Under the pieces are notes generated by a model that was not told where the DNA came from, made no database searches, and saw only the letters and a program-made list of their open reading frames with translations. 64,000 nt of DNA. Source: Pomacea canaliculata. Taxonomy: Eukaryota; Mollusca; Gastropoda; Architaenioglossa; Ampullariidae. Positions within the stretch are counted from its first letter, which is position 1, and each line of letters begins with the position of its first letter. Positions 4,123 through 61,838 of the stretch are shown one piece after another. The translations under genes and the position numbers were made by a program. The stretch is taken from contig NC_037596.1 of assembly GCF_003073045.1 (NCBI RefSeq), positions 29,610,392-29,674,391 of the forward strand. Direction: 5' to 3'.

Positions 4123-4180
4123 ATGATGCGCTCAGTCCTCAGTGTCTGTGTGATGTTTACTCTTCTAATACAAGGTGTAG
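4123..4180 (+). CDS. Gene 1 exon 1: signal peptide
   Basis: Begins [18 protein letters not shown], a short basic start followed by a hydrophobic core. Of the two consecutive ATGs I chose the first. Exon length is 58 bases, giving phase 1, followed by donor GTAAGT. The 5' UTR and exon match genes 3, 4 and 5 almost base for base. Confidence 0.88.
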
Positions 4181-6601
4181 GTAAGTATTAATTAGTTGGA
4201 GACATTTTTAATACTTTGTATTAGGCCGCGATAAAACATTTGTTGGAAGGTCAAAAGTATAATAAAGAGAATTAACGTACTACTGCACAAGTGCATGTGT
4301 GTGTAGGTGGCTGCTCGTGCTATGCTCACATTATATTCACTTCATTATGCTATGATGCTGCAAGAAGACCATGCCACCCCCTGTAGTACTCGTGTGATGA
4401 CCGACCTTTACAGCATCAGTAAAGTCAGCGGCTAGACTGTAGTGTCACGTGACCCTGACTAGGCTCCTAACGGGCTAACCTGCAACATCATGGGATGCTT
4501 CCTTCAGGCCAAAAGTGGCTCATCTGTTCTAACTTTTTCATCAAGTGTGGCTGATCATCGCTCAAACGAATCTAGTTATACTTGTTCTATGTATTTCCAA
4601 TACCTGAATGTTTTGGAGTAAATGAAAGAAAATGTCAGAAAGTAGCATCTGTTCACAATTTTGTTAAAAATGGTGCATAAAAGGGACACAAATGCCAATG
4701 GCACTAAAGTTATGTAAATAGTATATCGTGTTTCATATCGTCTCAAGCATAGATTTCACAAGATGTGCTAATTGGAAGTAAAATGTACCTGTTGATATGA
4801 CGGTTTTAAGGACGAGTAAGGTGACATTTCAACTTCAGAATCAATCATGCCAATGTTTTTGCAGATTCAGACTCTGAGTGCACTACCATCATCAGCGGTA
4901 AGTACCTGTTTAGTCCGAGTAAAAGATCTCCTTTCATTTGCATTTTGATAAATTTTAATTTTTCATTAAAAATTTTTCCAACAGCTTCATGTTTTTCAAC
5001 TATGATGTTCTCAACTAAAGGTACTTTTTCCAAGATTACAAATAAACAACCATCAATAAATTGTCTTGCTTTCAAAATTAAATTTTGAAAAAAGAGAACG
5101 TACTGTTACAAGATTGTGTCGAATGTAGTAGATGAAAGGGCACATAACTGGGCGGGTACTTGAGAAAAAAGGTACACATTTTTCTTTCTGGTTATTTAAA
5201 AAAAAATAGCTAAATAAATATAACTTTCTGATTTATATAGCCCAAGTGATTTCAATAAGAGAAACAAAAAACTCTTGCATTGAATTGGAAGGACCATAAG
5301 TAACAACAAAATTATTTTTAATGTAGTTTCAGACAAAGCAGGTGATGGGAGATTGCATCTTAGTGGAGGGCGGAAACCTCTTCGTCTTCAACTTTGATTT
5401 TCCACGTTTCTGTCGATTCTTTTTCAGTTTTATCATCTTAATCCTTTTCTCAAACACTTCTCATCTGTATATAAAACACATCTAATGTCACTTACTGTGC
5501 TGACGATCTTATCTACCACGAAAAGCATATAGTCAACTCGATACTATCATTCTCTCGATCATCCGTCCATCCCCCATCTCGCGGCACACACAGTCGTGAC
5601 ACTGTGACAAGGCAGAGTGTTATATAGACAGGGTTAAGAAGAACTGTATTTATTCTGTAAATTAAAAAAAAAAATTCAATCATAAGTTAAATAATGCAGA
5701 TATTTGGACACACGTCTTGTTTCCATTCTCGAAGAACTGCTTTTGTTTTTAATTTACGGAAAGATAAATTATATCTTAAGCTCCACATGAAAAAAAAACC
5801 TAAGGCATCTAACAATGAACCGTCTAAACCAGAATATTTTACACATTGGTTATCAGAAAAATTTTTGAGCAGACGGAACAGGACAGATGATGTTTGTTCT
5901 CCTCATTTCTGATCTGTATGCAACATCGTTTTGCCGAAATTTAAACAGGAGAATGTCTAGCTCGACTTATACCAACATAATTTTTCACTCATCATTGTCA
6001 TCTTATCTAGGTCTGTTGAAGACACTTTAAATATTATACTTGACTTACTATAATGCTCGGTATCGAGCAAACTTACTGATGAGACGGATCAGAATGACAA
6101 AGATGGTGATGGTGTCACAGTTTTTACTTATGATAGTTTCAAGTTTTCTTGCTCAAAAACAAAATGTGATGAACATAATTTTCATCATCTTGCTGCTAAA
6201 AGACAACTTATACAGCACGCTGACGTCATTCATCAAGGATGGATGGAAGGGGTTTGATCACAGGTTGCCGAGCAAGGAGGTCGATACTCCACAGACAGAA
6301 AACTAAATAATTTAAAATAATGTTGACATAAAACAAATAAAAAGAATCCAGTTAATTAGAGCACCAAAGGTCAATAAAAGGTCCTAAATTCACAACTAAT
6401 ACAGTATTTAACAAAAATTACAGAAAACTTTACAAGAGTTAAGAAACACTGGTGTCACTTCCATGAACACAGATCATCCTTTTTAGGGGGGAAAGTATGA
6501 AAGAGGACGGTAGAGCAAATAAGGTGGAGGTTTTATCTCTCCCTTCACTACTAACGGCGAACGTCCTCTCTTGCAAATAAATGATACAAATTGATGATGT
6601 T

Positions 6602-6673
<72 letters not shown>

Positions 6674-9600
6674 GACAAAAGATACAATACAATTAGTTTT
6701 GATCTGTCTAAAATGAAATAAACATGAAAAAAAAGGATCTGAAAATGATTTGTTTTGTTAACAGATTGCTACAGCGCAGTGGTAGACATAGTATTCATTC
6801 TTGACAGTTCAGCAAGCGTGTTCTCTACGGATTTCACTCGCATGCTGCATTTTACCCGTGATTTGGTCTTTAATCTAAACATCGATGGTGGCGATGCTCG
6901 AGTGGGAATCATCACTTACAGTCACACAACCAATGTAGAGTTCTACCTCAGCCAGTATCAAATCGAAACAGAATTACTTACTGCTATCGACGATATCACA
7001 CACTCTCATGGTTTGATGACCAATACAGGAGAAGCTCTAAAAACGATGAGAGAAGAGATGTTCACGGCTGTTCACGGTGACCGACCGGAAGTCCCAAACG
7101 TCGCACTTCTAATCACCGACGGCAATTCCCAGCAAGGAGAGATCACAAAAATTCAGGCAAAGATAAGCAAGGAGGCGGGCATTCACATCTTTGCCATTGG
7201 CATTGGAAAAGTTCACCTCTCAGAACTAATTAACATCGCCAGCGGACACCTGAGGAGAATGTGTTTTCTTTCAGTGAATTTGAGGAGCTGCAGAACTCGA
7301 AAGATAGAATCTGCTCAACCCTTTCTAAGCGCACGTTATTAAAAAGTGAGTTTTAAGAGTTTTGTGTTTATTAAGTGTATATTATTTATATATATTTGAC
7401 TTGAGACATTATGTATATGCAATCATCCTTAACTATATTGTTGAACAGATTATAGAACGACCATTAAGAACTTGTGGAAATGTGTTTTCAAAAAAAAAAA
7501 AATTAAGTTACATTTACATTGAAGGTGCAACTCCAGTTAATGTCGGTGATCTCTTTGGAAAATTATTTATGGTAATTCTAATTGCAGACTTCAGATTGAC
7601 TACACCTATTTCTTTGCCATCACCCGGGACTGGTAAGACAATTTCATAACAGAAAAAGTATGGAAGTTTTATGTTGTTTATTTTTGATATTTCTTTGAAA
7701 CCTCTTCACTTTTTGGTGACAGGGCTGTGCTTAAAAAGTGTTCGTTCTGTGTGTCTATTCTTTTAAGACGTGTTTACCTTGTTGAACATTCTAAGCAAAA
7801 ATGTGTTTAGGTCTGTTGTGAAAGATGTTTGTGTTTCTTCAAAGTAGTAATTGTAATGATGATCGATAAATTAATCACATGATGAATATTTTAAGTAGTA
7901 TTGTACGGGAAACATGTCTAAAGGAAAGCCACAGGTTTTGCAAAAAAATACCAAGCAGAAAAAAACACAGATACCAACCACAATGAATCAATCATACGCA
8001 CTTATGGTGCATAATTTTTCTCTCTCGCTTATACATACATGCATATACAGACACTCACATACACTTCCGTTTTAAGATACAAGTTATATAGAGATACATT
8101 CTGTGGTACTAGAGAGCGATTAACAGGACATCTTTAGATAGCATAAAAAAAATCTAGTATTACTGATATTGTGCTATAAATATTACCGTAAATTTTGAAT
8201 TATAAGCCTCGACTTTTTCCCTGATTTTTAACATTTTGATTGCTTTTTGATAAACTCTATGTTTAAGTGCTAATTGTTGATCTTGTTAAAATATTAACTA
8301 TTCTCACTTTTAAATCAAAGCCGCATACAATCAAATCAAGTAGATCAGTTGCTTTAGCATACACCCTCAAAACGACGATGACGACGACGACAATGATGCA
8401 ACTGTAATAGAAAAAACAATAATTTATACTTCTGTTCTAGTTGCACGTATGGTTCAAGGAAAAAAGACAGACCAGAAGTTGTCATCAGGACGATTAGAAA
8501 TTGTTTACGATGGAATTTGGAAGACAGTGTGCAGAGAAAAATTTGGAAACAATGAAGCTCAGGTCGCCTGCAGGATGCTTGGATTTAACAGGTGAGTTAT
8601 GTTGCCATTCGGTTTGATTGCAACCAGCCTTTGGAAGTTGTAGGCACCACATCTATGTCTGCTTAGTTAAGACATTTCTATCAATCATAATGGGATTTGG
8701 GCATCTTTATTTACATCGCGTACACTCTAATTAACAAAACATAGCTTTTAACAGATTATTTTGTGTACTACTAATTGAAACACGTTTATACATGATTTAT
8801 ATCTAGAAAAAAATTTATGAGGAAAGTAAATTGAACTTAATTAAATTAGATTAAATTGAATTTTATTCTAACCCATTTAAATGATGTTTGCTGGACATTA
8901 TAGAAATACAAAAATATAACTATAAGATATTTGAATGTTACTTATCCTACTTAGTAAAACAGCTATTAAATTACATTTTTAAATGAGTGTAAATGTCGCG
9001 TGTTATTTGCTGGGGCGGCATATCCGGTCGTTTGATGTGACGGGGGAAGGGGCGGAGGCCCTGGTGGCATGGGAAGGGCGGAAGGTTCCCTCTCCCTTTG
9101 AGTTAGACCGGCACGTTTGTTTTGGAAGTCCGGGATCGGACCGGCAGTGAGATAGTAGAGCTTTGGTACGGGAAGGCGTTGCAGGGAGGCTGTGTGCTTT
9201 TTCCTGGGATGAGAAGTGTCCTCGCAGAGGTTTCTTTTCTCCGGCGTTTTCTGCGGGTGGCAGAGCTGGTATATCACGAGCCGAGTGAGTGAGTACAGAA
9301 AACTTCCTGTCGCCGTTGTCCAAGCTAGTGGCTGGCCGGCCGGTGTGCAAGTCTGCGAGGTCTTTGTATAGATGTGTATGGGGTGGGGACGGGCTTATGT
9401 GTTGAGTCTGTTTTATGGGGGATTTTTATTTGTGTTATAATGATGTGTGTTAAGCGTTCAAGATTGTATTAGGGGGCTTTTCTATGTAGATAGGGTTTTG
9501 TTTTTGTCGTAGCATACGACGTTATTTAGATAATGTTACCAGAGAGGCATAAGAGAGCGGCTTTGTGATTGTATATGTGTATGGCCAAAGACTGTGTCTT

Positions 9601-12600
9601 TCACGGGGATGGCTTTGTACAGGCTCCGAAGAACGTGCTGAAAAGTTTTGTGTCCACTGAGAAGTGATTGGCTTTGTTGCTCGCTTCGGGCGTGTGGAAG
9701 TCTGTGTGTGCGGCTGTGAGTGTGTGTGAGTGTGCGAGTCTTGCAGCGCCCGACGGTGGTACGCGACAGTAAATATATAGAGAGAATTGTCATATTAAGA
9801 TTCTTATATCTAATTCTTCGAAAATGCAATCTGTTAACTCATTTATGCTTCAGCATAGCCCTTTAATGCTCCATTCCTTAAAGATAGTTGTGTTGATACT
9901 AGTTTTTGAGATTCACTATATTTAATGTTTTCGTTCCATCTTATTTAAATTTAAATAAAGTATTATAAAAACATGCTCATATCTTCATGTTTGTTGCTAT
10001 GTCTAACAGCTCTAAAGCCATAGCTGTGAGTTCAATGTTCGAAGCGGGTTCAGATGCAATTTTGCCTTTTCACCTGAAGTGTAAAGGCAATGAAGCTAGC
10101 CTGATGCAGTGCCTTAAAATTAAATGTTCGGAATTTGACTGCACACATCTGGAGGATGTTGAAATCATCTGTAACGCTGGTAATATTAATCTCTGACATA
10201 ACTTTTTTTCTGTCGTTGCATGGTTAGTCAACATTTAATCTCATTTGATAATGCATCTATAAAGTGTTGCTTACATCGGATAAGTACTGCTTAGTAATTA
10301 CATATGTGACAGGTAAGCTGTATAATTTGTATGAGTACTTGTTGTTTAGATGGGAAAATGGTTTAATTGTGTAGTATTTGTGGTGATGAGTGAGTGCAAG
10401 ACTACCACCTACTAAGTCTACCACAAAATGTTAAGATAACCAGCTAAAATCTTTCGCATAAGATAATTTTTCCCATTTCCCAATTATTCTCATGGCCATT
10501 GTCATAGAAATGGGTTTAGCTGACAGCAATATATGATTGTAGGACAGTCAGTTGGAAGTATTAAATGTGTTTAGATGATCGAAACACTAGGAACTGCACT
10601 TTTTGATTAGTAAAATCTGATTTATGAAAAATAATTACATACTTTGGTGAATACAAGTCTTTAAATATTAAGATAGTCGCTTGCTTCGAGATAGGTACAT
10701 ACTTTGCTTTCTGTGACACATTTATAGAAAGAATAGTGTCATGGCAAAATCCTAGTAATTTAGTCGTTTAATGCTTTTGTTGATATTTTTTTGTCTAATA
10801 CTTTATACAAATGTATTCTTTACTAATCTTTCTTTTATAAATTTTCTGCAGGAATTCATTACAAGTAGGAAGTTTCTCTTTTTTTAAACTATGTGCTTAT
10901 TTAATTAAATGCAAAATATTAAAGACTATAATTATTTTTATGTTTGCTAAGCTAGTTCTTTTCTAATTCAGCTGAGAAGATAAAATTTCGTTTAATGAAC
11001 AAGAAGAAGAGTGTGGGCGGCTACAAATATATTTTAATGGGCATTGGAACACTGTCTGCGGAACGAGATTTGGGAAAACAGGCGCGAAGGTGGTCTGTGG
11101 ATGTTAGGATTCAACAGGTAATTTGTGAAATATTTCTGTTTTTGATAATGTTTCATATAGCCATATTATTCATTTGGTTTTTTCAATTACAATAAGATGC
11201 ATGTAAATGTAAATATTATTGGCCCTTAAAGTATGAGCAGCATGTAATACATCTTTAGGAAGATAGAGGACACAAAGAACTAATAATGTTGATTCCAGTG
11301 TGATGCATTATGAGATGGTTCACAACTAGGTACGGTTTATGATTGCCAGCTTAAATGAAATATAACAGAGCATATTGTTTAATGTGGCCAGAATAAAACT
11401 TTAACTTCTTCAAACACGTTCTTCAGAAGCAAAGTAATCTTAAGCCGTTTTCTATTAGTTATTTATTGAAAGTATTTTGTCATTTTCCTTTGTGTGTTGG
11501 ATTCGTTCCTTTACTCTACATGATAAGAATAATTTGAGCTACAAAATGAATTTTATAACCTAAAGGCAATTGATGTCAGTCAGAGGAATCTTCCTTTTGT
11601 GATCAGAAAGTTGTCCGAAAGGTGTCCAGTTATTTATCAAGACAGAACAGATACTCCAAGAGAATTTGTTTTAAAATGCTCAGGCAAACGATATGGTATG
11701 ACCATAATCAGGAGTAACAATCGCAGTCACCGAATAAACAACTTTTTGTTTCCTATGCATAACCACAGAAAATTTTCAGTAAAGTTTTGTTCATAGGTGT
11801 GGTGATGTAAGAATTCTATATATTGACATTCCCTACATTCACAGTATGTGCTTTCATAAAACTGTATGCGTGACTAAATATTTGTCGTGTAGCTCATTAT
11901 TTTGTCTGAGTACATTTTTTTACTCATTTTTATAGCACGGAAGCAGCAGCAAAAATATATCGCAGGAGTTTAGGCAACAGTGTGAACATGTCTCTAAGCT
12001 GCCATGGAGAGGAAAGCAGTCTTGATGAGTGCATCGAGACAATTTACTACAACTACAGCTGTAAAGAAGAACTTGGTGTCATGTGCAGTTTGAGTAAGAT
12101 TCTTTTTTTTATAGACTTTTTAAAACTTTTGTTTATATCTTTGACCGTTATACCACTGTAAAGGCATTGTCAAGATTCTTAACAAGGTTCTATATATACA
12201 TATACTTTCAAGTGTTCGACTTCAACAAATTATGGTAGGAACTTGATTACCCTCAAAAACTACATTTTCTTAAATAAGGCTATGATATTTAATACCCCTG
12301 TTTATCGAAATCCGTAGATTTAAAGGCAATAAATGTTCTTCTGTGTGTAAGAGTGCACATATTTTACAATGCAATTAATGCTAGCCCTAAATAAGAAAAA
12401 ACATATAGATTAATGTTCATAAACTATATTTACCGCAAAGAACTGTCATCATATTATTTCAAAGCATTTCTAATTTGTTTAAAAGATTTTTTCTCTCTTT
12501 TTCTCTTTTATCAGACGTTGAGCTAAAGCTCGATTGGCTGTCGTACATCAGAAGGCGGGCGATTAGAAATATTTTTCGAGGAGGACTGGAAAACCGTGTG

Positions 12601-15600
12601 TGGAGATGATTTTGGAACGAATGAAGCGCAGGTAGTCTGCAGGATCTCGGATCAGCAGGTAGGAATGGTCTCTACTTTTCATCCATACATTTTACTATTC
12701 ATCATTTCGCATATATACGAGGCTTCATTTTGATAGATATTTGTGAAGATTCATTATGAGCTAGTGCAATGTTGTTGGCATCGACATTTGATAAAAACAG
12801 AATACTACTTTCATCCTAGCTGGTTTTTTATTAATCATTTCTCTTAATAAGGAATCCATAAGATGGTATTTGTTAAAAATAAATTTCGTTTAAAAGAGAG
12901 CCTGCAGGTGGTGAAGTGGAGAAGAAACACTTTTTTTCTAATCATGAGTCCCGCCGGTCAGATGTGACAAGCCTTCGGATTTTTACGGGTCAGTGTGAAC
13001 ATGAACATGCATTTTACATGACCATCTTTATTACATTTTGTTTGACAATAGCGATGATGCAGCAGTTGTACCTTCAGCTGTATACGGAAAAGGTACAGGT
13101 GGCACTCTGCCTATTTACTTCAAGTGTCAGGGAACAGAAAAGAACCTGAAAGAGTGCATCGATACGATGTATTTCAACCACAGATGCAGTCATTCAGAGG
13201 ATCATGGCATCACATGCAACAACAGTAATAAACAAAATATTCTTCTTTTTAAATAGACATTTCATTTATCCATTGTTTTATTACATGCCGTGAAAGTGAA
13301 TACAAATACCAGTGATGAGTACACATATGCTGAAGCATAACTTTCAATGTTGACGAAATCATTACATGACAAAATGTTTTAGAATTCTGACTACTTACAT
13401 ATAAAAAAATCACCTCAAGAATTTTACTCTTCTTAACTTTCTCCAAAAGCTAAATGCATAAAATATTTTTTTTGTCTCTCTTCCATAATTCACTCAGTAA
13501 CATACATATATTTTTCTATAAAACATTAAAATAAATGTACACGCATGTATATATGATAGGTGTTTCGTTTCAAATATATGCTTCAAGCTCGTATTTATAA
13601 CAGCTATAACCTCTGATATTAAATTGTGAGTTATTCCTTTTTGTTTTTTTTTACCGGATCGTTCTTTGTGTTTCGATTGTAGCAAAACGTATTTTTATAC
13701 ATTCTATCCCCTCTCCTGATCCATTAAAAATTATCATAATATTCTACCATTTGCAGACTTACACACTAAAGCTAACTTTGATTTGTCGTTTTTTCCCATG
13801 CACTCAATCAGAGATACAGCTTAAAGCACGTTTGATGAGTGGAACGGCACCATGGAATGCCGATTAGAAATCCTGTTCCATGGAATCTGGAGCACAGTTT
13901 TGCGACACTGGTTTGGAAATGAAGAGGCGATTGTGGCCTGTAAAATGCTTGGGTTTAACAGGTGGGACACTCAAAGTTTTAAATTAGCATTTCTTTTACA
14001 TTTTGAATTGTAATCTAGATATTAAATTGCTATTGTATTCTTATTTTCATTGCGCCCCAAGTAGATCATAGTAGATAATAGGGCTGCAACCACACCTCGC
14101 CACAGGACCAGGTTCTGGGCATCCCTTTGCAGTATGGACCATGTCATGCCAGCAGTCTCTGCCTCTCTGTGGACTGATCGTCTCCACGTCTGTCTGGGTC
14201 TCCCAACCTTGCGCCTCCAACTGTGGGTTCCAGCCCAGAGCTTGTCTTGTTATATTGTCGGCTGGCTTTCGTAGAGTGTGGCCAATCCAGCCCCACTTCC
14301 ACTTCTTGTCTAATGAAACTGTTTGATGAAACAAACGTAGATCTTTGTCACTTGTCATTTTATTAATAGATTGAATTCCTACCTTTCACATGTTATTATA
14401 AATCTTATAAATACCACCATTTACGAACGCTTAACTTTTAGAATGTTTCAAGACTCTTTTGTTCAGTAAAATATATAATAAAAAAGTACGCACATATTAT
14501 ATGCAAACATTCATTTCTTATTTATTCAGCTCTCAAGTGGTTGTAGTGAAGTCAAATTTTTATGAGAAAGGCTCGGGTAGCATTCTGCTTGACAACGTAG
14601 ACTGCCAGGGGAATGAGTCCAGACTAGAGCAATGTGAACATTCCACATATTACAACACCAGATGCCAGCATGATAACGACGTTGGTATCATATGCTTAAT
14701 AAGTAAGAACATATTTCTACAGTACATTCTTGTTACATAATTTTTATTTTGTCTAGTTACTATGTACTAGATAACGTGTGAAAACATATTTCTTTAAGCA
14801 GACCAAAACACTGTTCACCTTACAAAACACTTGTTAACAACACACACACACTGACCTCTTTTATTCTCTCCGTAACTGAAGTTCCCGATTTTCGGAAATA
14901 ATTTTTGTCGTCAACAAAAGCAACAAAGTGACAAAAAGAACTAAAGGCTTTACAGGAGGAATTGCACAGTCGCCTCATGTGAAAACCAAAGTAGGGGAGG
15001 CAAGCACGATTTTCATGCCTCTTGTCAGCAGCTTTCAGGCGAGTATATTACATTTTTATTCTATGTATATAGATTATTAGCAGTAGGAATTTTGTAAAAT
15101 CCGCGAAATTAATTGTGGATACAATAGACATGAAGTAGAAAATAAAAGTGATAGGTACTGTCACGTGTTTATGTACAAAGATAGTGCGCCGGAGATATTT
15201 CCAAAAACGTTATTTTAAATGTGTGTTGATATCTAGCAAAAATGTATTTAAAAGGAAAAGTAGCAAACAGCCTTTGTTTAAAAATTGCATTTTACTAATT
15301 TATAAATATCTATATATTATATTAGTATGTATTTAAGTTGTAATGGATTGCAGATAAATCGAGTGATCAGGCAAATGAGTCTAACTCAGCTTTCCATTTA
15401 ATAAATTGTTATTTCAGGCTTTCATAGTAAAATTCCCACTTTACATTTTTTCAGAAACGATGGCTCTGGAGGCTGGAGTAGAAAAAAAAAAAAAATAGAG
15501 CTGAACCTGTAAAAACATCAAGCCCAGAACGTTTATATTCTGACATTACCTTCTTCACACGGTTGTTTAAAGCAAAGTAACCTAGGCGCATTCCTGCTTC

Positions 15601-19478: not shown

Positions 19479-19536
19479 ATGTACAGTACTCATCACGCAT
19501 CTTGTCTCATATGTTGTCTCTTGGTTCAACGATCGG
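19479..19536 (+). CDS. Gene 2 exon 1: diverged signal peptide
   Basis: Encodes MYSTHHASCLICCLLVQRS, then donor GTAAGT. Exactly 58 bases and phase 1, like the other leaders, with a recognisably related 5' UTR. The next exon reads on in frame. Confidence 0.65.
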
Positions 19537-46309: not shown

Positions 46310-46619
46310 TTAATTGACAGCGAATGACCAAATTTTACGATAAAGATTTAGTACATTTATGTTGTGTTGAAATGTTTTAGTGTCTGCATGTGAGCCAACA
46401 CATGAATGCATAGGTAATGTTGACAAATTAACTATTAACACGCCAAATTATGATCACAAAAATATAGGGGTATAATTATTCAAAAATATCTTTTTCCCAT
46501 TAATTACTTCCTTGTTAATTGACTTTAAGCATCCACACTGCGGTCTGTGCTCAGTGTCAGCTTTCCAGCCAGACTCTCCTCACATCCTCGTCTTCCTGCA
46601 AGACATCGCAGCTAACATC
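46310..46619 (+). promoter_or_regulatory. Gene 4 conserved upstream region and 5' UTR
   Basis: Matches the upstream regions of genes 3 and 5 (shared GAATGACCAAATTTTACGAT-like and ATGCATAGGTAAT segments), with the near-identical 90-base 5' UTR next to the ATG. Confidence 0.5.
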
Positions 46620-46677
46620 ATGATGCGCTCAGTCCTCAGTGTCTGTGTGATGTTTACTCTTCTACTACAAGGTTTGA
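46620..46677 (+). CDS. Gene 4 exon 1: signal peptide
   Basis: Identical to the gene 3 leader; 58 bases, phase 1, donor GTAAGT. Confidence 0.9.
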
Positions 46678-48189
46678 GTAAGTACTCAATTACACTTTGT
46701 CTTAATATCGTTATGCTATGATGCTGTAAGAAGTCCATGCCAGCCCCTGTAGTACTCGTGTGATGACCGACCTTTACAGCATCAGTAAAGTCAGCGGCAT
46801 GACTGTAGTATCACTTACTGGGTTTTTTGTCGTCACTTCATACAAGAATGTTAAGGTTAAGTTAAAGTCACACCTGATATGATTTTAGGAACCTAGCATA
46901 AATGAATGGTAAAGATTGTTTATCTTTAATAAAGAAAATATATCACTGTTTACAAATAAACTAATAGCTTTCACTTTTAATGCAGTGAAATGCAGAAAGG
47001 ATGGACCATTGCAAAATTTAGCTCTACTGAAGAGGCCTTTGTTCATTTAAAAATATTTAGTTACGAGATAGAGATTTAATTCAGGTTTTGCTTACGAACA
47101 TGTTGTAGGGACCATACAGACATGAAGTAGTTGGCAAGACATTTCTGCTGAGGTAGATTAATTTTAACTTTAATGTCGCTAACAATTTCAAGTCTTTTTT
47201 ACAGCGCCTGTCCACATTCGTACAAAAAGTAGAAGATATCCGTTAAAGGAGGACTCAAATGCTACTTTAAAGTGTGAGAGCAATGAGCGGTCTGGTGTAA
47301 TAAAGTACACGTGGCCAGAAAATGCAGGTGGGTTCCCTGATGGCAGTAGCCTGATCATCACTAGAGTGACCAGGGAACATCATGGAAGCCGAGTGAGGTG
47401 TGAGGCGATGTACAGTGATGGTGAAGTTGTCTCTAGTGACACACTGCAATTACAGGTTTACTGTGAGTATTGGGATCAAACGACAATGAATGCGCGCGTG
47501 TGTGTATAGACGTGTACTGGCATGAAGTGTCAATACAAATAGTTACTTCTGGTTAAATGTAAATGTAAATAAATATATAAAGTCGAGCCTAAGACACCTT
47601 AGTCTTATTGTAAGGATGATATGTGCGACGAATGACGTGCTATCGGCTTGTTTACAGATCGCCCGGTTATCAGGATAACACGGAGTGACAATCAGGGTCA
47701 GCCACTGTCCACCTACTCTGAGGTCATCAAGGGTCACAATGTGACGTTTGTGTGTGACGCTGACAGCAACCCGCCTCCTGCTTCCATCACGTGGTCAAGG
47801 AAAGTGAGCAGCACTACTGGGGAGTTACACATCTTAGCAGCACAGCAGACGACACACGAAGATATTTACACCTGTACCGTGGTCACTGAGACAGATGATA
47901 ACGATGATCGTCTACCACTAAGGGCATCTTACCAGCTTGCTTTTGTCATTAAAGGTATTTTGAGGGATACCGCTCTATCTATCCCCACTCACCAACCCAC
48001 CCACCCCATTCACCCACACACATTAAAATTGTGCATTTTTTGCCAGGTTCTGAAAACGCATTCAGGTATAGTGCAAAACACGGTCATTTTCTCGCTTTTA
48101 TTCTAAGCCTTATATCCAGGAACATTTTGCGTCTTTCAGCAAGACTTCTTCATGTACATCTTAGGTTTAACAACATGACACAATGCTGA
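46620..48189 (+). CDS. Gene 4: compact Ig(x2) protein lacking SRCR domains
   Basis: Exons: 46620-46677, 47205-47462, 47658-47954, 48047-48189; 756 bases, 251 residues plus stop, fully open. Order: signal peptide, Ig type 1, Ig type 2, tail. The single 527-base first intron starts like intron 1 of genes 3 and 5 and, from about 46815, continues like their intron between SRCR 2 and Ig 1. One deletion of about 4.3 kb therefore removed all four SRCR exons, and the frame survives because both introns are phase 1. The product would be a small soluble or weakly anchored Ig protein, possibly a modulator or partner of the longer forms (inference). Confidence 0.85.
47205..47462 (+). CDS. Gene 4 exon 2: Ig type 1
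   Basis: 258 bases. Starts TPVHIRTKSRRYPLKEDSN, the most diverged N-terminus of the type; the rest (ATLKCESNERSGVIKYTWPE, VRCEAMYSDGE) is canonical. Confidence 0.9.
47658..47954 (+). CDS. Gene 4 exon 3: Ig type 2
   Basis: 297 bases, almost identical to 35981-36277, with DDNDDR in the acidic run and SRKVSS for SGKVRS. Confidence 0.9.
48047..48189 (+). CDS. Gene 4 exon 4: C-terminal tail
   Basis: After a 92-base intron. Reads SENAFRYSAKHGHFLAFILS and ends NNMTQC then TGA at 48187, with donor GTAAGT one base later. Less hydrophobic than the gene 3 tail, so secretion is more likely here. Confidence 0.7.
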
Positions 48190-53690: not shown

Positions 53691-54245
53691 TTGAGGACAT
53701 TAGTACTGAGACAATAAGATTAAAAGATAAGCTTGGTCACAGGAAAGCTTGCAGAATAAACCTACAGAATTTAAATTAACGTTGTGGGTCTTTGTGAAAC
53801 GCCATTGCTATAGATACCCACCAACCCCCGATAGATAGAATTTAATTTTTCTTTTAAACAAAGACATCAAAATTCTAATGTGTATTGTAGCTGTGGTAAT
53901 TTCCAGTCAGCACAGATTTTCTGAGTTTTGTCGTACTGTCAATGGAAACATCATCCTTTCCGTTAAAGAGGCCACTGCTATTACATCATTAAAGATGAGC
54001 GTTGTCCTACGAATTTAATGAGAGCCCCCATAAACTTCAGCTGGGACATTGTCATTACAATTGTGCTATGTGTTCGTTAAGATGTAATCGACTTCCTTTC
54101 TATTCAATATAAATAAACCATGGCTGTTGATGGTCCTATGTGAAAACAATACATGACTTGCATTGATCCGAATCATACACCTGTCAACACCACATTTTAA
54201 GGTAGTTTCCTACAAAAAAGTCTACGAAAGAAGCGAAAGTGAATA
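53690..54245. repeat. Upstream repeat A, copy 4 (second half)
   Basis: Matches the second half of the block (ACATTAGTACTGAGACAATA onward) and runs into the gene 5 promoter region. Confidence 0.75.
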
Positions 54246-54712
54246 ACCTCATACATATGTTCAGGACATAATAGGGCTATGTTAAATACACCTGCACCTA
54301 TAGGGGTGACAAAATGTCAAACAAGCGTTTAGACTATAATTATAAATAAGAACCAATCAGACAGCTGGGTTTTGTGAGGCGTATCTTTAAACTGCTTAAT
54401 TGACAACAAATGACCAAACTTTGTCGATTGAGATTCAGTGCATTCGTGTTGTCTTGAGGAAATGCATCTGTGTGAGCCAACACCTCGATGCTTAGGTAAT
54501 ATCCACAAATCCACTATCCACATGTTAAATTATGCGTTTTCCCTCTATCACATAAACAGTGGGACACAAGTCTTTGGAAAATCCTTTTCCCGTTATTAAC
54601 ATCCTTGTTGTCTGACTTTAAGCATCCACACTGCGGTCTGTGCTCAGTGTCAGCTTTCCAGCCAGACTCTCCTCACATCCTCGTCTTCCTGCAAGACATC
54701 GCAGCTAACATC
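54246..54712 (+). promoter_or_regulatory. Gene 5 conserved upstream region and 5' UTR
   Basis: Parallel to 31691-32144 before gene 3, including CATACATATGT at the left, the CCCGTTATTAAC stretch shared with gene 1, and the near-identical 5' UTR. Confidence 0.55.
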
Positions 54713-54770
54713 ATGATGCGCTCAGTCCTCAGTGTCTGTGTGATGTTTACTCTTCTACTACAAGGTTTGA
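54713..54770 (+). CDS. Gene 5 exon 1: signal peptide
   Basis: Identical to leaders of genes 3 and 4; 58 bases, phase 1. Confidence 0.9.
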
Positions 54771-57700
54771 GTAAGTACTCAATTACACTTTGTCTTAATA
54801 TCGTTATCCTATGATGCTGCAACAAGACCATGCCATCCCCTGTAGTACTCGTGTGATGACCGACCTTTACAGCATCAGTAAAGTCAGCGGCTAGACTGTA
54901 GTATCACGTGACCCCGATTAGGCTCCTAACAAGGTCACTGTCATCTCACTGAAGGTATCAACACCATCTGTGACAGAAGCAACTCATCAGCAAGGGGAAT
55001 AATGTAACCTAGGACGACATTTGAATTCTCAGCTGGAATGTTGGTGGAGTTTTACCCTTACTAGGTATCACGGACTTTGTTGAATACCTATAGTAGTTTG
55101 ATGTGCTATGTGTAACTGACAGTATATTGAGACCAGCCTCCAGTTACACAACTTTATTGACTCTTGTTTGTATTTTGCTCCGACTAAGAAACTGAGATGT
55201 TATTTTGATGTAATCACGACAAGGATGCCGTTCAATCTGTTTAATGTTTTAGATTACTTCTGTGCATCCAACGAACTGTGTAAGGAAGAGACCCTGTATT
55301 ATTTAAAAGTCGAAAATAGTGTAGTCAGACCATCTGCCAGTCTCACACGAACAGACCGCGAGAACCCACGTGGAAATGGAAAATAGACAGAAAAAGTAGT
55401 GTGGCACGGTGACAGGGTAAAGCTTTTTTAAAGCAGCACTGAACACGGGAAAAACCAGACACGAACTTGAAAATGCGTCTTCCAAAATAGAACAAAATGT
55501 CAATAAAGCAGTTAGTCTACTCGTGAACTGCCTACAGCAAGCGGCGACGTGTAGCAGGTAAAGGGTTTTTACAGGTAACCGCAGAAAGCAACCAGACTGG
55601 TTTGACCAAGAATGTACACAGGCATAAAATCGGCTAAATCTTGTTTACGTAAATACAGATGTCAAAGTACGGACCAGTCTTTATCAATCTGTAGAGGCAA
55701 GGCAACAGTACTGGAGGCTAGTAAAGGAGAAAAAGAGAAGATATAAAAAGGTAAAAGCAGAGAATTTAACAAAGCCAATCAGTTACCCCAAACTGTTTTG
55801 GAAAGTAATAAAATCATGTTTGGGTAACACAGGGTTAAAGTATTACAAAACATGAATGGATGAATCACTTTAAAGACGTTTACCAAGATTAGAACCCTCA
55901 TATACCTGAAGTAGACTGCACAAATTTTGATAATCAGCCTGGAATAGAGGAACACGATGAGACCATGAGAGAGAGCGAGGTACATACCGCAATACGAAAC
56001 CTCAAGTCGCAAAGCGTGTGGCACAGAGAAAGTGTTAGTATTAGCCGATGAACAGGTATTTGGCTTTTTAACTAAACACTTTTAGTCAATTTTTGCTAGC
56101 TGGAAATGTATATGTATATAACAGGAAGCTATAATTGTAACCATCTATAAGAAAGGCGATCACGAGAGCTACACGAGTAACTACAGAGTTATCTCCCTTC
56201 TAATGGTCTCATGCGTCGGTGTCTTTTATTACTTTTATGTTCGACATAGTTACAATGTAATATAGAGAGGTTTATATAAAGCAAGGAAGGTGCTTTCTCT
56301 GAAATGTCTAATACATTTACTTATTTATCCTAGAATAGAAAAAACATTTTTTATTGTTAGTTACAGGACATGATAGTGTTGTACGTTAATCAACAGAGGA
56401 ACAGACAAGTTTTGATTTTCAAGTCTGTAGGTAATAAGATTTGCTGTAACTCGTTACTAATTCCCTTTTATGGTTGATTAGATGCACAGGGTAAAGTCCG
56501 GCTTGTGAATGGAACTGCCCCGTGGAATGGTGTCCTTGAGATGTTGTACAGAGGAACGTGGGGCCAAGTGTGTATCTATGGGATTAGGAAACAAGAGGCG
56601 CAGGTGGTCTGCAGGATGCTGGGCTTCAACACGTGTGTAATGTTTTGTGATCTTGCGCTTATATGCTGTGCAGTTATATTTGTTTATTCATGTTATACTC
56701 TCGATAAACAGATGATATACTACAGTTTCTTAAGCGGTCATTTCACTTTCGTCTTATTCTAACCACTGAGCTCCATACCGATTCGAGATAATCTTTTTAT
56801 ATAAGATACAATAAGAAAAAAATGTTGATGCAGAGGCATTTGTGTGTCTGTGTGTAAGTGTGCCATTTGTTTACAAACATTAAAAGGGACAATTAAGTAA
56901 TATCAAAAGCAAGTAGAGATACAAAAATGCAGGGTTGTCCATGGGACATATTTTTCTATCCCATCCCAGCCCATCCCATGGGACGTTTCCCATGGTAATA
57001 ACATTCCTATGGACAACACTGCGCATTGCACACATGTTAACAAAGTCATGGCATAATGAAACTGGAATAAAAAAGTATTTTTCCTGTGCTTAAAAAGTCT
57101 GACAATGCAAATTTCAGCGTAAATTTATTTTACAATATCAAGTATCGACTACCATGGGAAATAAAAATGTGTGCTGTCCCATCCCATCCCATGGGACTTT
57201 TCCCATGGGATTCCCATTCCTATGGACAACACTGCAAAAATGAAACAAGTTCTTAAATATGTCGTTTGTACTGATTAAAAAAAAATATTGACTAACTTTG
57301 TCTATAAGTAAAATCAGATAATAAAAGCAATGCGCCTGCATGTATATGCAAATTGTTTTCTTAAAAATGTGTTGATTTTGACTGCATCTAGTCTGTATCT
57401 ATTAAAATAAGTCGGTACATTCTATAGATAAAACCAGACAAATGCACAAACATACCTTTCGTCAAACAGGTCGCACGTTTTCACCACATCGCTATTAATA
57501 GACAGTGTGAGCTACAACTATATCATATTTGACAACCTGAGGTGTACAGGCGAGGAGACCAGCTTAGAGAAGTGTAGTGATACAGAGATTATCAGTGACC
57601 CCTGGTGCCCCTATGTCGTTGGTATCACCTGCAACTCACGTAAGAATGTGCTGTTTCTATTCTGTTGTTTGCTGTGTCGCATTATGTATCCTAAAATAGA

Positions 57701-60700
57701 GAAAAAGAAACATTGACACATTTACCATTTTTATGCAAGAATTCTTTACAAAAGAGATGTAAACAATGCAAGAATATCTAGATATTAGACACAACACATG
57801 ATGTATTTTCACAACAATTAAAGTGTTAAGACTTTACAATATTGCAACGCATCTTAATTATGTAAGTGATTTTTGTCTTTTTGTTGATATAGAAACTGTT
57901 TTGTCTGCACAGATACTGAAGTGGCAATACACATGTCGGCAAACTTAAAAAGATAGTGAATATCTGACGGCTTGTTACAGAAAACATACAGGTGCGATTG
58001 AACTTCATCAGTGGTCAGGTAGAGATAGACATCGGAGGTGGTCATTGGGGGACAATGTGTGTGTCGACTGACAACATTGCCAGGGTCGTCTGTAGACAGC
58101 TCGGCTTACCATGGTAAGTTCTTTTCTCCTGTTAGTGAACGAGTCTGTAAAAGGATGATGTATAGTTTCTACTGAAATAACACAGTTTAAGGGAATGAAC
58201 TATCAACCTTGCTAATTATTAATGTTGATTTTGAAACTTTACATTTTACACACACAGCTAAACACATGTCTAAAAATGTTCACCTGTTACTCCATCCATC
58301 CATTTATTCTTTACTTTCAATCTATCCCTATCCCTTTAAAACGAAAATGTTTTACATGAGTTACTTCAGGTTTAACAAAATAGATCTTATATATTTATAT
58401 AGTGGAATAAATAAACGCCTGTAATAAAGTTGTTATGGTCTCATTAAGAGTATATCTATCTACATAAATACTGATCTATGAATGCTGACTGTCGTCTGAA
58501 TTATACCATGATCTTTTTATTTATCTAACATTGCACGATACGCATGCAGAGCATAAATGTACTTCTGAATAAAGAACACTTGAAGCATTTTAATTAGGCA
58601 TTAATAATTATCAGAACAATTGTTTTAAGCAAAAGGTATTCTGCAATGTTTAGGCTTGGTGCGAGGACTTTTGTAAATGAATACGTTGACATCGATGGTG
58701 ATTTGTCATCTTGCCTTGGGAATGAGACTAGCATCGCTGAGTGTCAAGATGAGATGTCTAGTGTCGGACCCTGCCTGGATTACACCATCATTTGCAGTAA
58801 CTGTAAGAACTTCTATTTTATAAAAGTAAAACTCATCAACGTCTGTACAATCTGTATGCTAGGTTTAACAAATAAAACTACATGTTTTGCATATGAAATA
58901 CAGAAATAAAATATTGTAACTGTTTCCAGTCTCATGTTCGACTAATGTCCTAAATCTGTTCCGCAAAATAAAGCCAACTAAAGGGATGCAACTTTTTATG
59001 AAAAAAAAAAGACCGCTACTACTGCCTATTTAACAGTATATGTTTTACTTTATTATTCTATTTTCATTTGAAATTGTTTTATAATCTAATTTTTTTTTTT
59101 GAAAATGTACTCGGTGATATGTCTTATCTATATACTCCTACCTTTTCATACATGTTATTATAAACCTTTCTTAACCTTGCTGTTTTTTTGTTTTTATTTT
59201 TGCCGCCACTTCATTCAATAATGTTAAGTTTCAGTCTCAGTCACACCTGATATAATTTTAGGACCTAACGAAAGGGTATGATAAAGATCGTTTATGTTAA
59301 ATAAAGAAATTGACTGTTCACAAAACAAACTAATAACTTTCATTATTTTAATGCCGTGAGGAAAAAAAGGGGGGCATAGTTGCAACATTTAGCTTTGCTA
59401 AAGAGACGTTTGTTCATTATAAAATATTTAGTCACCAAAGAGAGATGGAGAGAGAGAGAGAGAGAAATATAGATTTCATTATACATTTTGCTTAAGAACG
59501 TGTAATAAGGAGCGGAAAGATGAGGTAGTTGGCGACATCTTTCTGCGGAGGCGAATTAATTTTTAGTTTAATTTCGCTAAAAGTTTGAATTGTTTTTTAC
59601 AGATCTTGTCAACATCCATACAAACAGTAGCAGATATCCTTTAATGGAGGAAACAAATGCTACTTTGAAGTGTGCGAGCAATAATCAGTCTGGTGTAGTA
59701 AAGTACACGTGGCCAGAAAATGCAGGCGGGTTCCCTGATGGCAGTAGCCTGATCATCACTAGAGTGACCAGGGAACATCATGGAAGCCGAGTGAAGTGTG
59801 AGGCGATGTACAGTGATGGTGAAGTTGTCTCCAGTGACACACTGCAATTACAGGTTTACTGTGAGTATTGGGATCCAACGACAATGAATGTCATGAATAA
59901 GGCTACTTAGTCATCGACAGCATATAGTGTCTTTACGCAAATGAGTTTCAAGTTTATCATCTAACAGAAAAAAGTGCTTCATGTACAAGCTGCATACCTT
60001 GATCTTCTTTCTCTTTTTTTTATAACCTACGTGTAAAGTTAAGAGTGCTTGTATGTTTATATGTGTAGCCGACAGAAACTGCTACTTTTGGTTGCAGATA
60101 GATGTTAGTAAGTAAAAACGAAGACACTTGCCTGATGTATAGATGATACTTGAGACGAATCACGTTCTATCGGCTTGTTTACAGATCGCCCGGTTATCAG
60201 GATAACACGGAGTGATAATCAGGGTCAGCCACTGTCCACCTACTCTGAGGTCATCAAGGGTCAGAATGTGACGTTTGTGTGTGACGCTGACAGCAACCCG
60301 CCTCCTGCTTCCATCACGTGGTCAGGGAAAGTAAACAGCACTACTGGGGAGCTACACATCATAGCAGCACAGCAGACGACACACGACGGTAACTACACCT
60401 GTACCGTGGTCACTCAGACAGATGATGATGATCGTCTACCACTGATGACATCTTACCAATCTGCATTCATCGTGAAAGGTATTCTTAACTTTACCTTCTG
60501 TTTTTCTTTATCTTATGATTGCGTTATTTACACCTTAAACATATTTCTTTGTGTATTTGTCCATAAAGTTTAATTAACTTGGAAAACAAACTAATTGTAT
60601 GTACGAAATATCTAGAAAAAATGTAACTTTTACGCTTAGTACATTTTGTATGGAGCAAAAAGACATAAGGTAAGCAGAACTTTTTCCTGCACAGGCTATC

Positions 60701-61838
60701 TTACTTTTATTAAATTGTTAGTAAGAATTGCTTGCATTTTTCACAGTTTCTGTCAGCATCCATACAAACAGTAGCAGGTATCCGTTAATGGAGGAAACAA
60801 ATGCTACTTTAAAGTGTGCGAGCAATGAGCGGTCTGATGTAATAAAGTACACGTGGCCAGAAAATGCAGGCGGGTTCCCTGATGGCAGTAGCCTGATCAT
60901 CACTAGAGTGACAAGGAAACATCATGGAAGCCGAGTGAGGTGTGAAGCGATGTCCAGTGATGGTGAAGTTGTCTCCAGTGACACACTGCAATTACAGGTT
61001 TACTGTGAGTATTGCGATCCAACGGCAATCAATGCAATGAATAAGGCCCCTTTGGCTTCGACAGCATTTAGTCTTCTTAAGCAAATGAGTTTCAAGTTGA
61101 AGTTCCCAAAGAAAAAAATCTCTTTTTTATGTACTAGCTGTAATGCTTGATCTTCTCTCCTTTTTAGCCTACATGCAAGTTTGAGTGTGTTTGTACGCGT
61201 ATTTCTTTTTTTTTTTTTTTTTTTTTTACATGTTTCGACAGAAACTGCTACTTTTAGTTTGAGGGAGAAGTTAGTAAATTAGTAAAACCAAGACACTTGT
61301 CTGATGTAAAGATGATACGTTCGACGAATCAAGTGCTATTGGTTTGTTTACAGATCGCCCGGTTATCAGGATAACACGGAGTGACAATCAGGGTCAGCCA
61401 CTGTCCACCTACTCTGAGGTCATAAAGGGTCACAATGTGACGTTTGTGTGTGACGCTGACAGCAACCCGCCTCCTGCTTCCATCACGTGGTCAGGGAAAG
61501 TGAGCAGCACTACTGGGGAGCTACACATCATAGCAGCACAGCAGACGACACATGAAGGAATTTACACCTGTACCGTGGTCACCGAGACAGTTGATGATGA
61601 TGACCGTCTACCACTGAGGGCATCTTCTCTAATTACATTTATCGTTAAAGGTATCATCACACACACACACACGCTCGCTCGCACACACAGAACAAGACAC
61701 ATTGTTCGTCATGAACCAGCTTCGCGCGAACAACGGTCTTCAAGCCTTAAAACCAAAAACAGTTTGAGTCTTACCGCCGTTTTTGCCCGTTTTCTATCGA
61801 AGGCTGAGTTTCACTTGACTAAGAGGGAGCTGAGGTAA
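54713..61838 (+). CDS. Gene 5: SRCR(x2)-Ig(x4) protein
   Basis: Exons: 54713-54770, 56482-56632, 57470-57639, 57981-58113, 58654-58802, 59603-59860, 60185-60478, 60747-61004, 61354-61650, then an uncertain tail at 61720-61834. Same plan as gene 3: signal peptide, two SRCR, Ig types 1-2-1-2. All nine certain exons are open and join in frame (589 codons). The last intron (61651-61719, 69 bases) has no stop and is a multiple of three, so both the spliced and the unspliced message stay open into the tail; unspliced, the frame ends at TAA 61836. Intron 1 holds a copied segment of the gene 2 downstream region with a LINE fragment, and the SRCR 1 intron holds a hAT MITE, neither of which gene 3 has there. 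Confidence 0.83.
55227..56220 (+). mobile_element. Non-LTR LINE fragment in gene 5 intron 1
   Basis: Same family as 29085-29440 but longer: endonuclease end (DYFCASNELCKEETLYYLKV), linker (QPDWFDQECTQA, YWRLVKEKKRRYKK, MNHFKDVYQ) and the start of the reverse transcriptase (IIVTIYKKGDHESY-like and SNYRVISLL). Multiple frame breaks; no catalytic core. Confidence 0.7.
56482..56632 (+). CDS. Gene 5 exon 2: SRCR 1, first half
   Basis: Encodes VRLVNGTAPWNGVLEMLYRG, WGQVCIYGIRKQEAQVVC and RMLGFNT. Phase 1 to 2, donor GTGTGT as in gene 3. Confidence 0.88.
56930..57234. mobile_element. hAT-type MITE
   Basis: 305 bp between an 8-bp duplication CAAAAATG (56922-56929 and 57235-57242). Imperfect terminal inverted repeats: CAGGGTTGTCCATGGGA at the left against the complement of TCCTATGGACAACACTG at the right. 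Interior has CCCATCCCATGGGA repeats and no coding capacity. The corresponding gene 3 intron has the unoccupied site. Confidence 0.85.
57470..57639 (+). CDS. Gene 5 exon 3: SRCR 1, second half
   Basis: Encodes FDNLRCTGEETSLEKCSDTE and ends VVGITCNS. 170 bases, phase 2 to 1. Confidence 0.88.
57981..58113 (+). CDS. Gene 5 exon 4: SRCR 2, first half
   Basis: Encodes IQVRLNFISGQVEIDIGGG, WGTMCVSTDNIARVVC and RQLGLPW. Three codons shorter than the gene 3 copy in the loop before QVEI. Phase 1 to 2. Confidence 0.86.
58654..58802 (+). CDS. Gene 5 exon 5: SRCR 2, second half
   Basis: Encodes DLSSCLGNETSIAECQDEM, then PCLDYTIICSN. Two codons longer than the gene 3 copy in the loop after AEC, a likely surface loop. 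Phase 2 to 1. Confidence 0.86.
59448..59466. repeat. (GA)n microsatellite
   Basis: GA run in the gene 5 intron before Ig 1a. Confidence 0.85.
59603..59860 (+). CDS. Gene 5 exon 6: Ig type 1, copy a
   Basis: 258 bases; ATLKCASNNQSGVVKYTWPE and VKCEAMYSDGE. Phase 1-1. Confidence 0.9.
60185..60478 (+). CDS. Gene 5 exon 7: Ig type 2, copy a
   Basis: 294 bases, one Asp codon shorter in the acidic run (DDDDR). THDGNYTCTV at the second cysteine. Phase 1-1. Confidence 0.9.
60747..61004 (+). CDS. Gene 5 exon 8: Ig type 1, copy b
   Basis: 258 bases; NERSDVIKYTWPE and SRVRCEAMSSDGE. The intron before it is only 268 bases, against 1492 in gene 3. Confidence 0.9.
61354..61650 (+). CDS. Gene 5 exon 9: Ig type 2, copy b
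   Basis: 297 bases; VDDDDR acidic run and THEGIYTCTV. Phase 1-1, donor GTATCA. Confidence 0.9.
61720..61834 (+). CDS. Gene 5 candidate tail exon
   Basis: DNA is homologous to the gene 3 and 4 tails (AAGCCTTA, then TTTGAGTCTT) and ends CTGAG then GTAAGT like them. In the matching frame it reads SSSLKTKNSLSLTAVFARFL without a stop and leaves phase 2, so a further exon, or read-through to TAA 61836, would end the protein. The acceptor (GAACCAG) is weak. Confidence 0.4.

Follow-up and report, generated by a model that had tools for sequence, protein, structure and literature searches.

The array described here raises the question of whether a snail genome can hold a compact family of recognition proteins assembled from SRCR and Ig domains, and which of its copies are still intact. 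Diversified recognition in animals without antibodies is an open question, much of the work in snails has concerned fibrinogen-type FREPs, and this locus is small enough for tests of copy number, allele sequence and binding. We analysed a window of 64,000 nt of Pomacea canaliculata (NC_037596.1, positions 29,610,392–29,674,391, forward strand), meaning the whole stretch of DNA under study, and all positions below are window coordinates. Five related loci, A to E, were identified on the plus strand between 4123 and 61767, with the architectures leader-VWA-four SRCR-tail (A), SRCR2-Ig4-transmembrane-cytoplasmic (B), leader-SRCR2-Ig4-tail (C and E) and leader-Ig2-tail (D). Our preferred reading, in which we place slightly more confidence than doubt, is that the array evolves by birth and death, as a tandem family of SRCR-Ig recognition proteins most of which are soluble. 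As far as its sequence can tell, the family is one of phase-1 modular exons and block duplications, in which some copies are intact and some are decaying; for its function, we infer a role in immunity.

The VWA, SRCR and Ig modules of the original prediction were confirmed by Pfam matches above curated cut-offs among the eight pieces scanned: VWA in the single VWA piece (136 bits), SRCR in five of the eight (66.9–129.8 bits) and Ig_3 in four (53–92 bits). Reading frames were uninterrupted across C, D and E, whose 4560 nt modelled as coding contain no frame break, and the spliced open frames of C (1935 nt) and E (1869 nt) had intron phases that were consistent at every junction. Chance open reading frames were ruled out because of these consistent splice phases together with the Pfam matches. 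A domain search of both strands gave minus-strand matches of E 0.38 or worse only, no tRNAs were found in the window, and a search for relatives gave 42 pattern matches among viral contigs and 28 among GTDB contigs, none of which was confirmed.

The two intact SRCR-Ig genes are C and E, in both of which the core cysteines, the splice sites and the frame are retained. Locus C has a leader exon (32145–32202), two SRCR domains within 32727–34725 (SRCR1, 32727–32877 and 33380–33549; SRCR2, 33911–34052 and 34559–34725), four Ig domains within 35397–38635 (35397–35654, 35981–36277, 37770–38027 and 38345–38635) and a tail exon (38713–38855). Locus E repeats that arrangement with a leader exon (54713–54770), SRCR domains within 56482–58802 (SRCR1, 56482–56632 and 57470–57639; SRCR2, 57981–58113 and 58630–58802), Ig domains within 59603–61650 (59603–59860, 60185–60478, 60747–61004 and 61354–61650) and a short tail exon that is not hydrophobic (61691–61767). 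In all three gene models on this side of the array, including D, the domains have Pfam support. Locus D (46620–48189) comprises a leader (46620–46677), two Ig exons (47205–47462 and 47658–47954) and a tail (48047–48189). Since D has no SRCR, the label SRCR-Ig fits three of the five loci, and the predicted order of SRCR before Ig holds for B, C and E. A simple haplotype duplication is an unlikely explanation for C and E because their starts are ~22 kb apart in one window, their introns differ by ~10% or more and they carry different insertions.

Locus B is the one member with a clear transmembrane helix, as had been predicted: the Kyte-Doolittle 19-residue mean reaches 2.9 in its helix, compared to 1.65 and 1.24 in the tails of C and D and values below zero in those of E and A. 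Its gene model consists of SRCR1 (20748–21561; exons 20748–20895 and 21389–21561), SRCR2 (22096–22729; exons 22096–22249 and 22557–22729), Ig1 (23060–23347), Ig2 (23715–24020), Ig3 (24400–24711; an I-set match of 27.1 bits, above cut-off), an Ig4-like exon (25156–25485), a transmembrane exon (26069–26181) and a cytoplasmic exon (26388–26660) which contains a donor-like site at 26487; more 3' exons are possible. Pfam matches accompany both SRCR domains and Ig2. One in-frame TAA interrupts the model, at 23221 in Ig1. The Ig4-like exon had no match in Pfam and was predicted, at low confidence, to be all-beta. Its single-sequence structure model had a pLDDT of 67 (52 or below in the other four models) and, when compared with PDB folds, had no matches at E ≤ 0.001; the best reached E 0.01, and the folds matched were in part Ig-like and in part other beta folds. 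We therefore label it Ig-like with low confidence, by its position and predicted beta content.

Locus A, in contrast to the unbroken C, D and E, is a pseudogene in this assembly. It begins with a leader exon (4123–4180; phase-1 donor) and a VWA exon (6765–7345; PF00092, 2.1e-39) whose frame breaks near 7247. The residues DSSAS, T and D are visible in the VWA translation, and we take them to be the metal-site motif of adhesion-type VWA domains; the profile match and this motif together place the domain with that type. Four SRCR domains of two exons each follow: SRCR1 (8441–10179; exons 8441–8591, with an acceptor approximate by a few bases, and 10010–10179), which is open, SRCR2 (10972–12093; 10972–11117 and 11936–12093), SRCR3 (12515–13224; 12515–12658 and 13052–13224) and SRCR4 (13812–14702; 13812–13961 and 14530–14702), in which one core cysteine is not readable. 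The first exons of SRCR2, SRCR3 and SRCR4 are frame-broken, making four broken exons with that of VWA, and four clear breaks in about 1.9 kb, or ~6 if the chosen acceptors are right. The tail exon (16676–16761) resembles those of C and D (E 0.012). The prediction of five same-strand genes thus survives as five plus-strand loci, one of which is a pseudogene and another, B, carries a stop.

The loci A, C, D and E share a 5' cassette. A block of 131 bp covering 5' UTR and leader is identical in all four (A, 4037–4167; C, 32059–32189; D, 46534–46664; E, 54627–54757), whereas the 100 bp upstream of it differ by 23–37% among them, and a second block of 52 bp in intron 1 (4381–4432 in A) is likewise identical in the four. 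A search for known RNAs in these blocks was negative: at gathering score Rfam gave no match across the window, and at E ≤ 1 none in 3880–4540. The expectation of related leaders was borne out by the near-identical leader exon of A, C, D and E; the candidate leader of B (19479–19536) differs from it in sequence and equals it in exon length (58 nt) and phase (phase 1). Three plus-strand relics had previously been overlooked: a copy of the 5' flank between B and C (27760–28828), a relic unit that has no gene, and two SRCR first exons, one weak (30161–30235; E 0.014) and one downstream of E (62669–62737; E 4e-8). The identity of the cassette persists even in the broken copy A. Such a cassette offers a handle on regulation and gene conversion.

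Group A SRCR domains have six cysteines and two exons per domain (PMC3100851). By profile, cysteines and exon structure, the SRCR copies of the array belong to that group: PF00530 exceeded its cut-off in the pieces from B, C and E and in those from SRCR1 and SRCR3 of A (the two SRCR domains of A that the Pfam scan covered), two exons encode the domain in all ten models, with a phase-2 intron between them in B, in C, in E and in the first SRCR of A, and SRCR1 of both C and E has the six conserved cysteines, while A SRCR4 is short of one as read. SRCR2 of C and E has the six and an extra one (LGLPC), if the acceptor chosen for that exon is right. The residue roles at the cation site of DMBT1, and the presence of such a site in MARCO, have been described (PMC7043408), but the canonical Asp-Asp pair after the first core cysteine was found in none of the ten copies, which sets the array apart from cation-dependent scavenger SRCR domains of the DMBT1/MARCO type. 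This count combines an alignment of seven copies (SRCR1 and SRCR3 of A, SRCR1 of B and both domains of C and E) with a single CD163 domain, an alignment of nine copies excluding the frame-broken A SRCR2, and residues of A SRCR2 read from the domain-search output; a provisional register to DMBT1 D1019/D1020 was set through CD163 and the DMBT1 sequence.

Comparison of C and E points to a contrast in selection between the two module types. SRCR exons had a pairwise dN of 0.215 and dS of 0.095, and Ig exons a dN of 0.061 and dS of 0.127. Differences at codon positions 1, 2 and 3 were 45/207, 32/205 and 20/203 in SRCR and 21/367, 18/363 and 38/363 in Ig. Maximum likelihood omega for the SRCR exons together was 2.66 (p 0.002), with SRCR2 at 4.84 (p 0.0015) and SRCR1 at 1.63, which is not significant alone (p 0.25); for the Ig exons together it was 0.56 (p 0.02), single exons ranging from 0.25 to 0.97. 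When codons near indels were removed (183 of 203 kept), the SRCR value was 2.28 (p 0.013), and none of 150 simulations under omega = 1 was as extreme. These tests of SRCR selection concern the one pair C/E, as the remaining pairs have either diverged too far or are broken. Three introns within the SRCR block had JC distances of 0.096–0.112, and four others 0.176–0.241, about equal to the SRCR nonsynonymous divergence, so that an SRCR rate of twice neutral holds only relative to the local baseline of same-exon dS and the introns between; for the Ig2-Ig3 intron, whose two copies could not be aligned, there is no distance. The comparison thus indicates an excess of amino-acid change in the SRCR exons and, for the Ig exons as a set, constraint; labour seems to be split between the two modules, SRCR changing and Ig being held. 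Three loops that surround the known SRCR ligand face are enriched in C/E changes (30 of 52 residues, versus 38 of 142 outside the loops; p 1.5e-4). The enrichment is not specific to C/E and is weakened as evidence for a binding face by 26 other pairs used as controls: three pairs from the window, and one that includes CD163, show the same tendency (p < 0.02). The claim of a compact, variable and putatively lineage-specific recognition family is strengthened by the SRCR excess, Ig constraint, tandem block duplication and relics of dead copies, with the correction that the set is partly decayed and its VWA-SRCR relative broken.

An equal SRCR excess would be expected of reproductive proteins: sexual conflict, or specificity between egg and sperm, could drive rapid SRCR change if the products were SRCR-Ig proteins secreted into the oviduct, the egg capsule or the seminal fluid. 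We regard that explanation as unlikely, if deserving of serious weight: nothing in the window indicates gonad or oviduct, the Littorina protein is built differently, and the Ig/SRCR pairing resembles a snail lectin reported in a review, as far as its description goes (PMC9178244). It is improbable that the SRCR exons have instead been freed from constraint while the whole array turns into pseudogenes, as the four broken exons of A, the stop in B, the loss of SRCR from D and the relics might suggest, since relaxation predicts an omega near 1 as opposed to the 2.3–2.7 observed, the Ig exons together are constrained, and C and E have kept core cysteines, splice sites and frame.

Two further explanations concern the damaged loci. 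Because all modules are phase 1, A could splice into B, which follows it in order on the same strand, giving a single gene of leader-VWA-SRCR4-(alternative tail)-SRCR2-Ig4-TM in which the exon at 16676 is an alternative secreted ending. Such a gene, which would be compatible with the other readings, has little probability in our estimation given the tail exon like those of C and D after the A SRCR exons, the plausible separate leader of B and the heavy decay in A versus the light decay in B. Assembly errors could produce both the frame breaks of A and the stop of B, leaving all five genes functional, but C, D and E have no breaks in more than twice the coding length that contains the four clear breaks of A, and one of the core cysteines in SRCR4 of A cannot be read, which makes this very improbable.

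Under the preferred reading of a birth-and-death recognition family, a membrane-anchored form (B, SRCR-SRCR-Ig x4-TM) would be accompanied by C and E, both soluble or weakly anchored, and by the Ig-only D. The two SRCR domains would form a ligand-binding head selected for new specificity and the Ig domains a stalk, and the soluble copies would be secreted, opsonin-like recognition factors that may dimerise via the extra cysteine of SRCR2. Binding would probably use the usual SRCR face without the canonical cation bridge, which is not expected because the Asp-Asp pair is missing, and the target would most likely be non-self, such as a microbe or parasite surface. A more specific proposal, that the constant 5' cassette of UTR, leader and intron-1 element on phase-1 modules with a changing, cation-independent SRCR head marks a germline-diversified receptor family, is possible but doubtful, and we offer it tentatively.

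Parallels exist in several systems. Sea urchin and sponge SRCR expansions (PMC10855680) share tandem arrays, change in domain number and exon loss by stop codon with the present array. They differ in that, in the arrays described, each SRCR is encoded by one exon in the urchin and by three in the sponge rather than by two. In the described 185/333 (SpTransformer) genes of sea urchins, a leader exon of 51 or 54 nt and small conserved regions of intron 1 precede a diversified remainder (PMC1988830). The short leader exon, conserved intron-1 regions and diversified remainder are alike here, whereas 185/333 diversity, by that description, comes from element mosaics in one long second exon. To our knowledge, 185/333 proteins have no SRCR or Ig domain. 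Receptors of the MARCO/CD163 type resemble the array in the six cysteines and two exons of group A SRCR, and positive selection in MARCO has been reported next to its WGTVCDD motif (PMC4491621); MARCO differs in having the cation site, and CD163, the best PDB match by sequence (E 4.6e-51 for the whole chain with its repeats summed, 42.5 bits for the strongest single stretch), is a group B protein.

Close in composition is an Ig2+SRCR lectin of a caenogastropod, described as possibly exclusive to Caenogastropoda (Gorbushin 2019, cited in PMC9178244). The exact phrase SRCR-Ig and its like were not found in the literature searched, which means little because that review describes the architecture in words, and its report shows that the combination is not unprecedented. 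In C and E, Ig and SRCR are predicted within one leader-bearing protein, as in the lectin described, except that C and E carry four Ig domains in two pairs rather than two, and D Ig only. VIgL proteins (FREP, CREP and GREP, also QREP and HREP) are described in PMC7588048, PMC8878817 and PMC12074976 as secreted, with a leader and one or two Ig domains joined to fibrinogen, C-type lectin, galectin, C1q or H-type lectin, and thus share with the array a leader and the union of Ig with a recognition domain. In the eight Pfam-scanned pieces there was no fibrinogen match at E ≤ 1, which separates the array from FREPs, and no lectin family above cut-off. As anticipated by the original prediction, the SRCR-first order is the reverse of that given for FREPs, with N-terminal Ig and C-terminal fibrinogen (PMC7588048, as there described). 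If the proposal of a germline-diversified family is true, the array would give snail-like animals a second means, besides FREPs, of joining Ig to a rapidly evolving recognition module, the variable portion lying here at the opposite end.

The window is animal-type genomic DNA of ~37% GC; it contains introns as well as pieces of reverse transcriptase, at 2757-3419 on the minus strand (Pfam RVT_1, 1.1e-13) and at 43609-43899 on the plus strand (RVT_1, 0.0012, under its cut-off). Exon models anchored on splice sites and then read through for frame gave five plus-strand loci, A to E, in which phase-1 introns flank the leader, VWA, SRCR and Ig modules and a single phase-2 intron lies within every intact SRCR. 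Loci C (32145-38855, 644 aa) and E (54713-61767, 622 aa) share the layout leader-SRCR-SRCR-Ig-Ig-Ig-Ig-tail, and D (46620-48189, 251 aa) reads leader-Ig-Ig-tail, the SRCR block of E being absent from it in the self-comparison of the window. All three have frames open end to end with consistent phases. Locus B (20748-26660) comprises two SRCRs, three Igs, an Ig-like fourth exon, and transmembrane and cytoplasmic exons, and carries one in-frame TAA at position 23221. Its leader is probably 19479-19536, a candidate of 58 nt, equal in length to the remaining leaders. When the entire window was scanned on both strands for hydrophobic starts with a phase-1 donor behind them, five candidates came up, and this was the sole plus-strand one in the gap preceding B, although the scan is incomplete in that it missed the C, D and E leaders. 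Locus A (4123-16761), the VWA-SRCR relative, reads leader-VWA-four SRCRs-tail and is frame-broken in the VWA exon and in the opening exon of each of SRCR2, SRCR3 and SRCR4, with four clear breaks, or about six provided the chosen acceptors are correct. Within its SRCR1 intron, 9003-9780 is G-rich and GT-biased and differs from its surroundings.

Pfam matches accord with these models: VWA in A (2.1e-39), two SRCR stretches each in C (7.3e-25), E (1.2e-27) and B (5.2e-38), and Ig_3 stretches in C (four), E (four), D (two) and B (three), with no Pfam match for the fourth Ig exon of B. By six cysteines and two exons per domain the SRCRs belong to group A (PMC3100851), one cysteine of A SRCR4 being unreadable. 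Among solved structures, the closest by sequence were CD163 for the SRCR tandem of C, collagen VI, proximal thread matrix protein and von Willebrand factor for the VWA, and, weakly, CEA, MAG and CD22 for the Ig pair.

The selection contrast is that of a single pair, C and E being the sole open SRCR-bearing genes. Their SRCR exons have 89.5 nonsynonymous differences over 479.5 sites (dN 0.215) and 11.5 synonymous differences over 129.5 sites (dS 0.095), and for the three introns of the SRCR block BLAST alignment gives 131 differences over 1331 sites and global alignment 139 over 1324. Change at synonymous sites matches that in the local introns, and SRCR amino-acid change is ~2-fold that level (Fisher tests on rounded counts, p 9e-7 against introns and 0.011 against synonymous sites). 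Four further C/E introns have JC distances of 0.176-0.241; divergence is therefore uneven along the locus, perhaps due to conversion, and the SRCR nonsynonymous change is no greater than that of these introns, so the baseline is a local one. A codon model gave an omega of 2.66 for the SRCRs (p 0.002 against 1), with 1.63 for SRCR1 (p 0.25) and 4.84 for SRCR2 (p 0.0015), versus 0.56 for the Igs (p 0.02), whose individual exons gave 0.97, 0.41, 0.25 and 0.63 by a counting method. Removal of codons five or fewer from an indel kept 183 of 203 SRCR codons and an omega of 2.28 (p 0.013), and none of 150 simulations at omega = 1 was as extreme as the observed SRCR value. Differences at codon positions 1, 2 and 3 number 45, 32 and 20 in the SRCRs, versus 21, 18 and 38 in the Igs.

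The history of the locus is one of birth-and-death via tandem duplication, deletion and decay. Block homology in the self-comparison connects units of the cluster: whole or partial copies of an upstream segment, U, lie at 27760-28828, 30709-31682, 41666-42186 and 53692-54243, C 32462-36305 matches E 56216-60509 at ~79-82% identity, and the 3' portions of C and D are homologous. A U copy and a repeated segment, without a gene, lie between B and C. The domain search found SRCR first-exon relics at 62669-62737 and, more weakly, at 30161-30235. Part of E intron 1 (54938-55558) recurs at 28881-29425, adjoining the gene-less U copy, which suggests that this unit descended from an E-like copy; the recurring segment is LINE-like by eye, and the piece 55628-55852 has no Pfam match. 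In E, the intron that separates the two SRCR1 exons holds a MITE-like insert of ~306 bp with inverted repeats (56930-57235), missing in the corresponding C intron. A direct repeat, 79-93% identical, lies close to the two ends of the window (946-1295 and 63489-63937). In a tree of the five Ig-pair segments both E pairs cluster (support 90; next node 64), and the inter-pair spacers of C and E do not align to each other, a pattern that would fit either independent doublings or conversion.

Conversion must also be weighed for the 5' cassette. Loci A, C, D and E share, without a single mismatch, 131 bp that start in the 5' flank and end inside the leader exon, the final 45 bases being coding, and also a 52-bp element of intron 1 (4381-4432, 32270-32321, 46747-46798 and 54840-54891, respectively), whereas 23-37% of aligned sites differ across the six pairs in the 100 bp upstream of the 131-bp stretch. 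The cassette matched no RNA family in Rfam, the 52-bp element being checked in its A copy. Such identity points either to regulation and a leader under strong constraint or to gene conversion acting locally; since the cassette persists in the broken locus A, recent decay or conversion is favoured there.

Given their leaders and the absence of a clear transmembrane segment, the C and E products would be secreted, the C tail being borderline hydrophobic (1.65), and B would be a membrane form, provided that a stop-free allele exists. Recognition may proceed via the SRCR head, with the Ig domains as a stalk, dimers possibly forming through an extra SRCR2 cysteine, and non-self as the putative target; the function may be immune or reproductive. 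In DMBT1 SRCR8, D1019, D1020, E1086, D1058, D1059 and N1081 are described as forming cation sites 2 and 3, and mutation of D1019 or D1020 as abolishing binding (PMC7043408). The Asp-Asp pair is absent from all 10 SRCR copies of the window. Differences between C and E are enriched in loops near the cation-site positions (30 of 52 residues versus 38 of 142 elsewhere; by alignment columns, 15/26 versus 16/75 in SRCR1, p 0.001, and 12/20 versus 25/73 in SRCR2, p 0.04), a bias not to be over-read given that, among 26 control pairs, four were likewise face-biased (p < 0.02), three of them from inside the window and the fourth with CD163. CD6 is reported to bind via the same SRCR surface without calcium dependency (PMC7043408), and by analogy we favour calcium-independent, CD6-like binding as the model for the SRCR proteins of the window.

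The pairing of SRCR with Ig is already known. A P. canaliculata lectin joining two Ig domains with SRCR, possibly exclusive to Caenogastropoda, is noted in a review (PMC9178244) that cites Gorbushin 2019 for it, and the combination of SRCR and Ig has been mentioned in sponges too (PMC6208332). An Elysia scavenger-receptor survey has Ig among its figure-legend abbreviations, the protein being unspecified (PMC7663992). SRCR families are reported as expanded in littorinid genomes (PMC11423352), and gastropod Ig as paired also with C1q (QREPs) and H-type lectin (HREPs) (PMC8878817). The window adds the anatomy of the locus, a VWA-SRCR member, a domain polarity opposite to that of FREPs and an excess of amino-acid change specific to the SRCRs, for none of which was a description found in the open-access literature searched. 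Relative to the FREP layout (PMC7588048), with N-terminal Ig and C-terminal fibrinogen, the cluster falls outside the family, having no fibrinogen by Pfam and the reverse domain order; the original observation that SRCR precedes Ig, opposite to FREPs, is borne out by the gene models of B, C and E.
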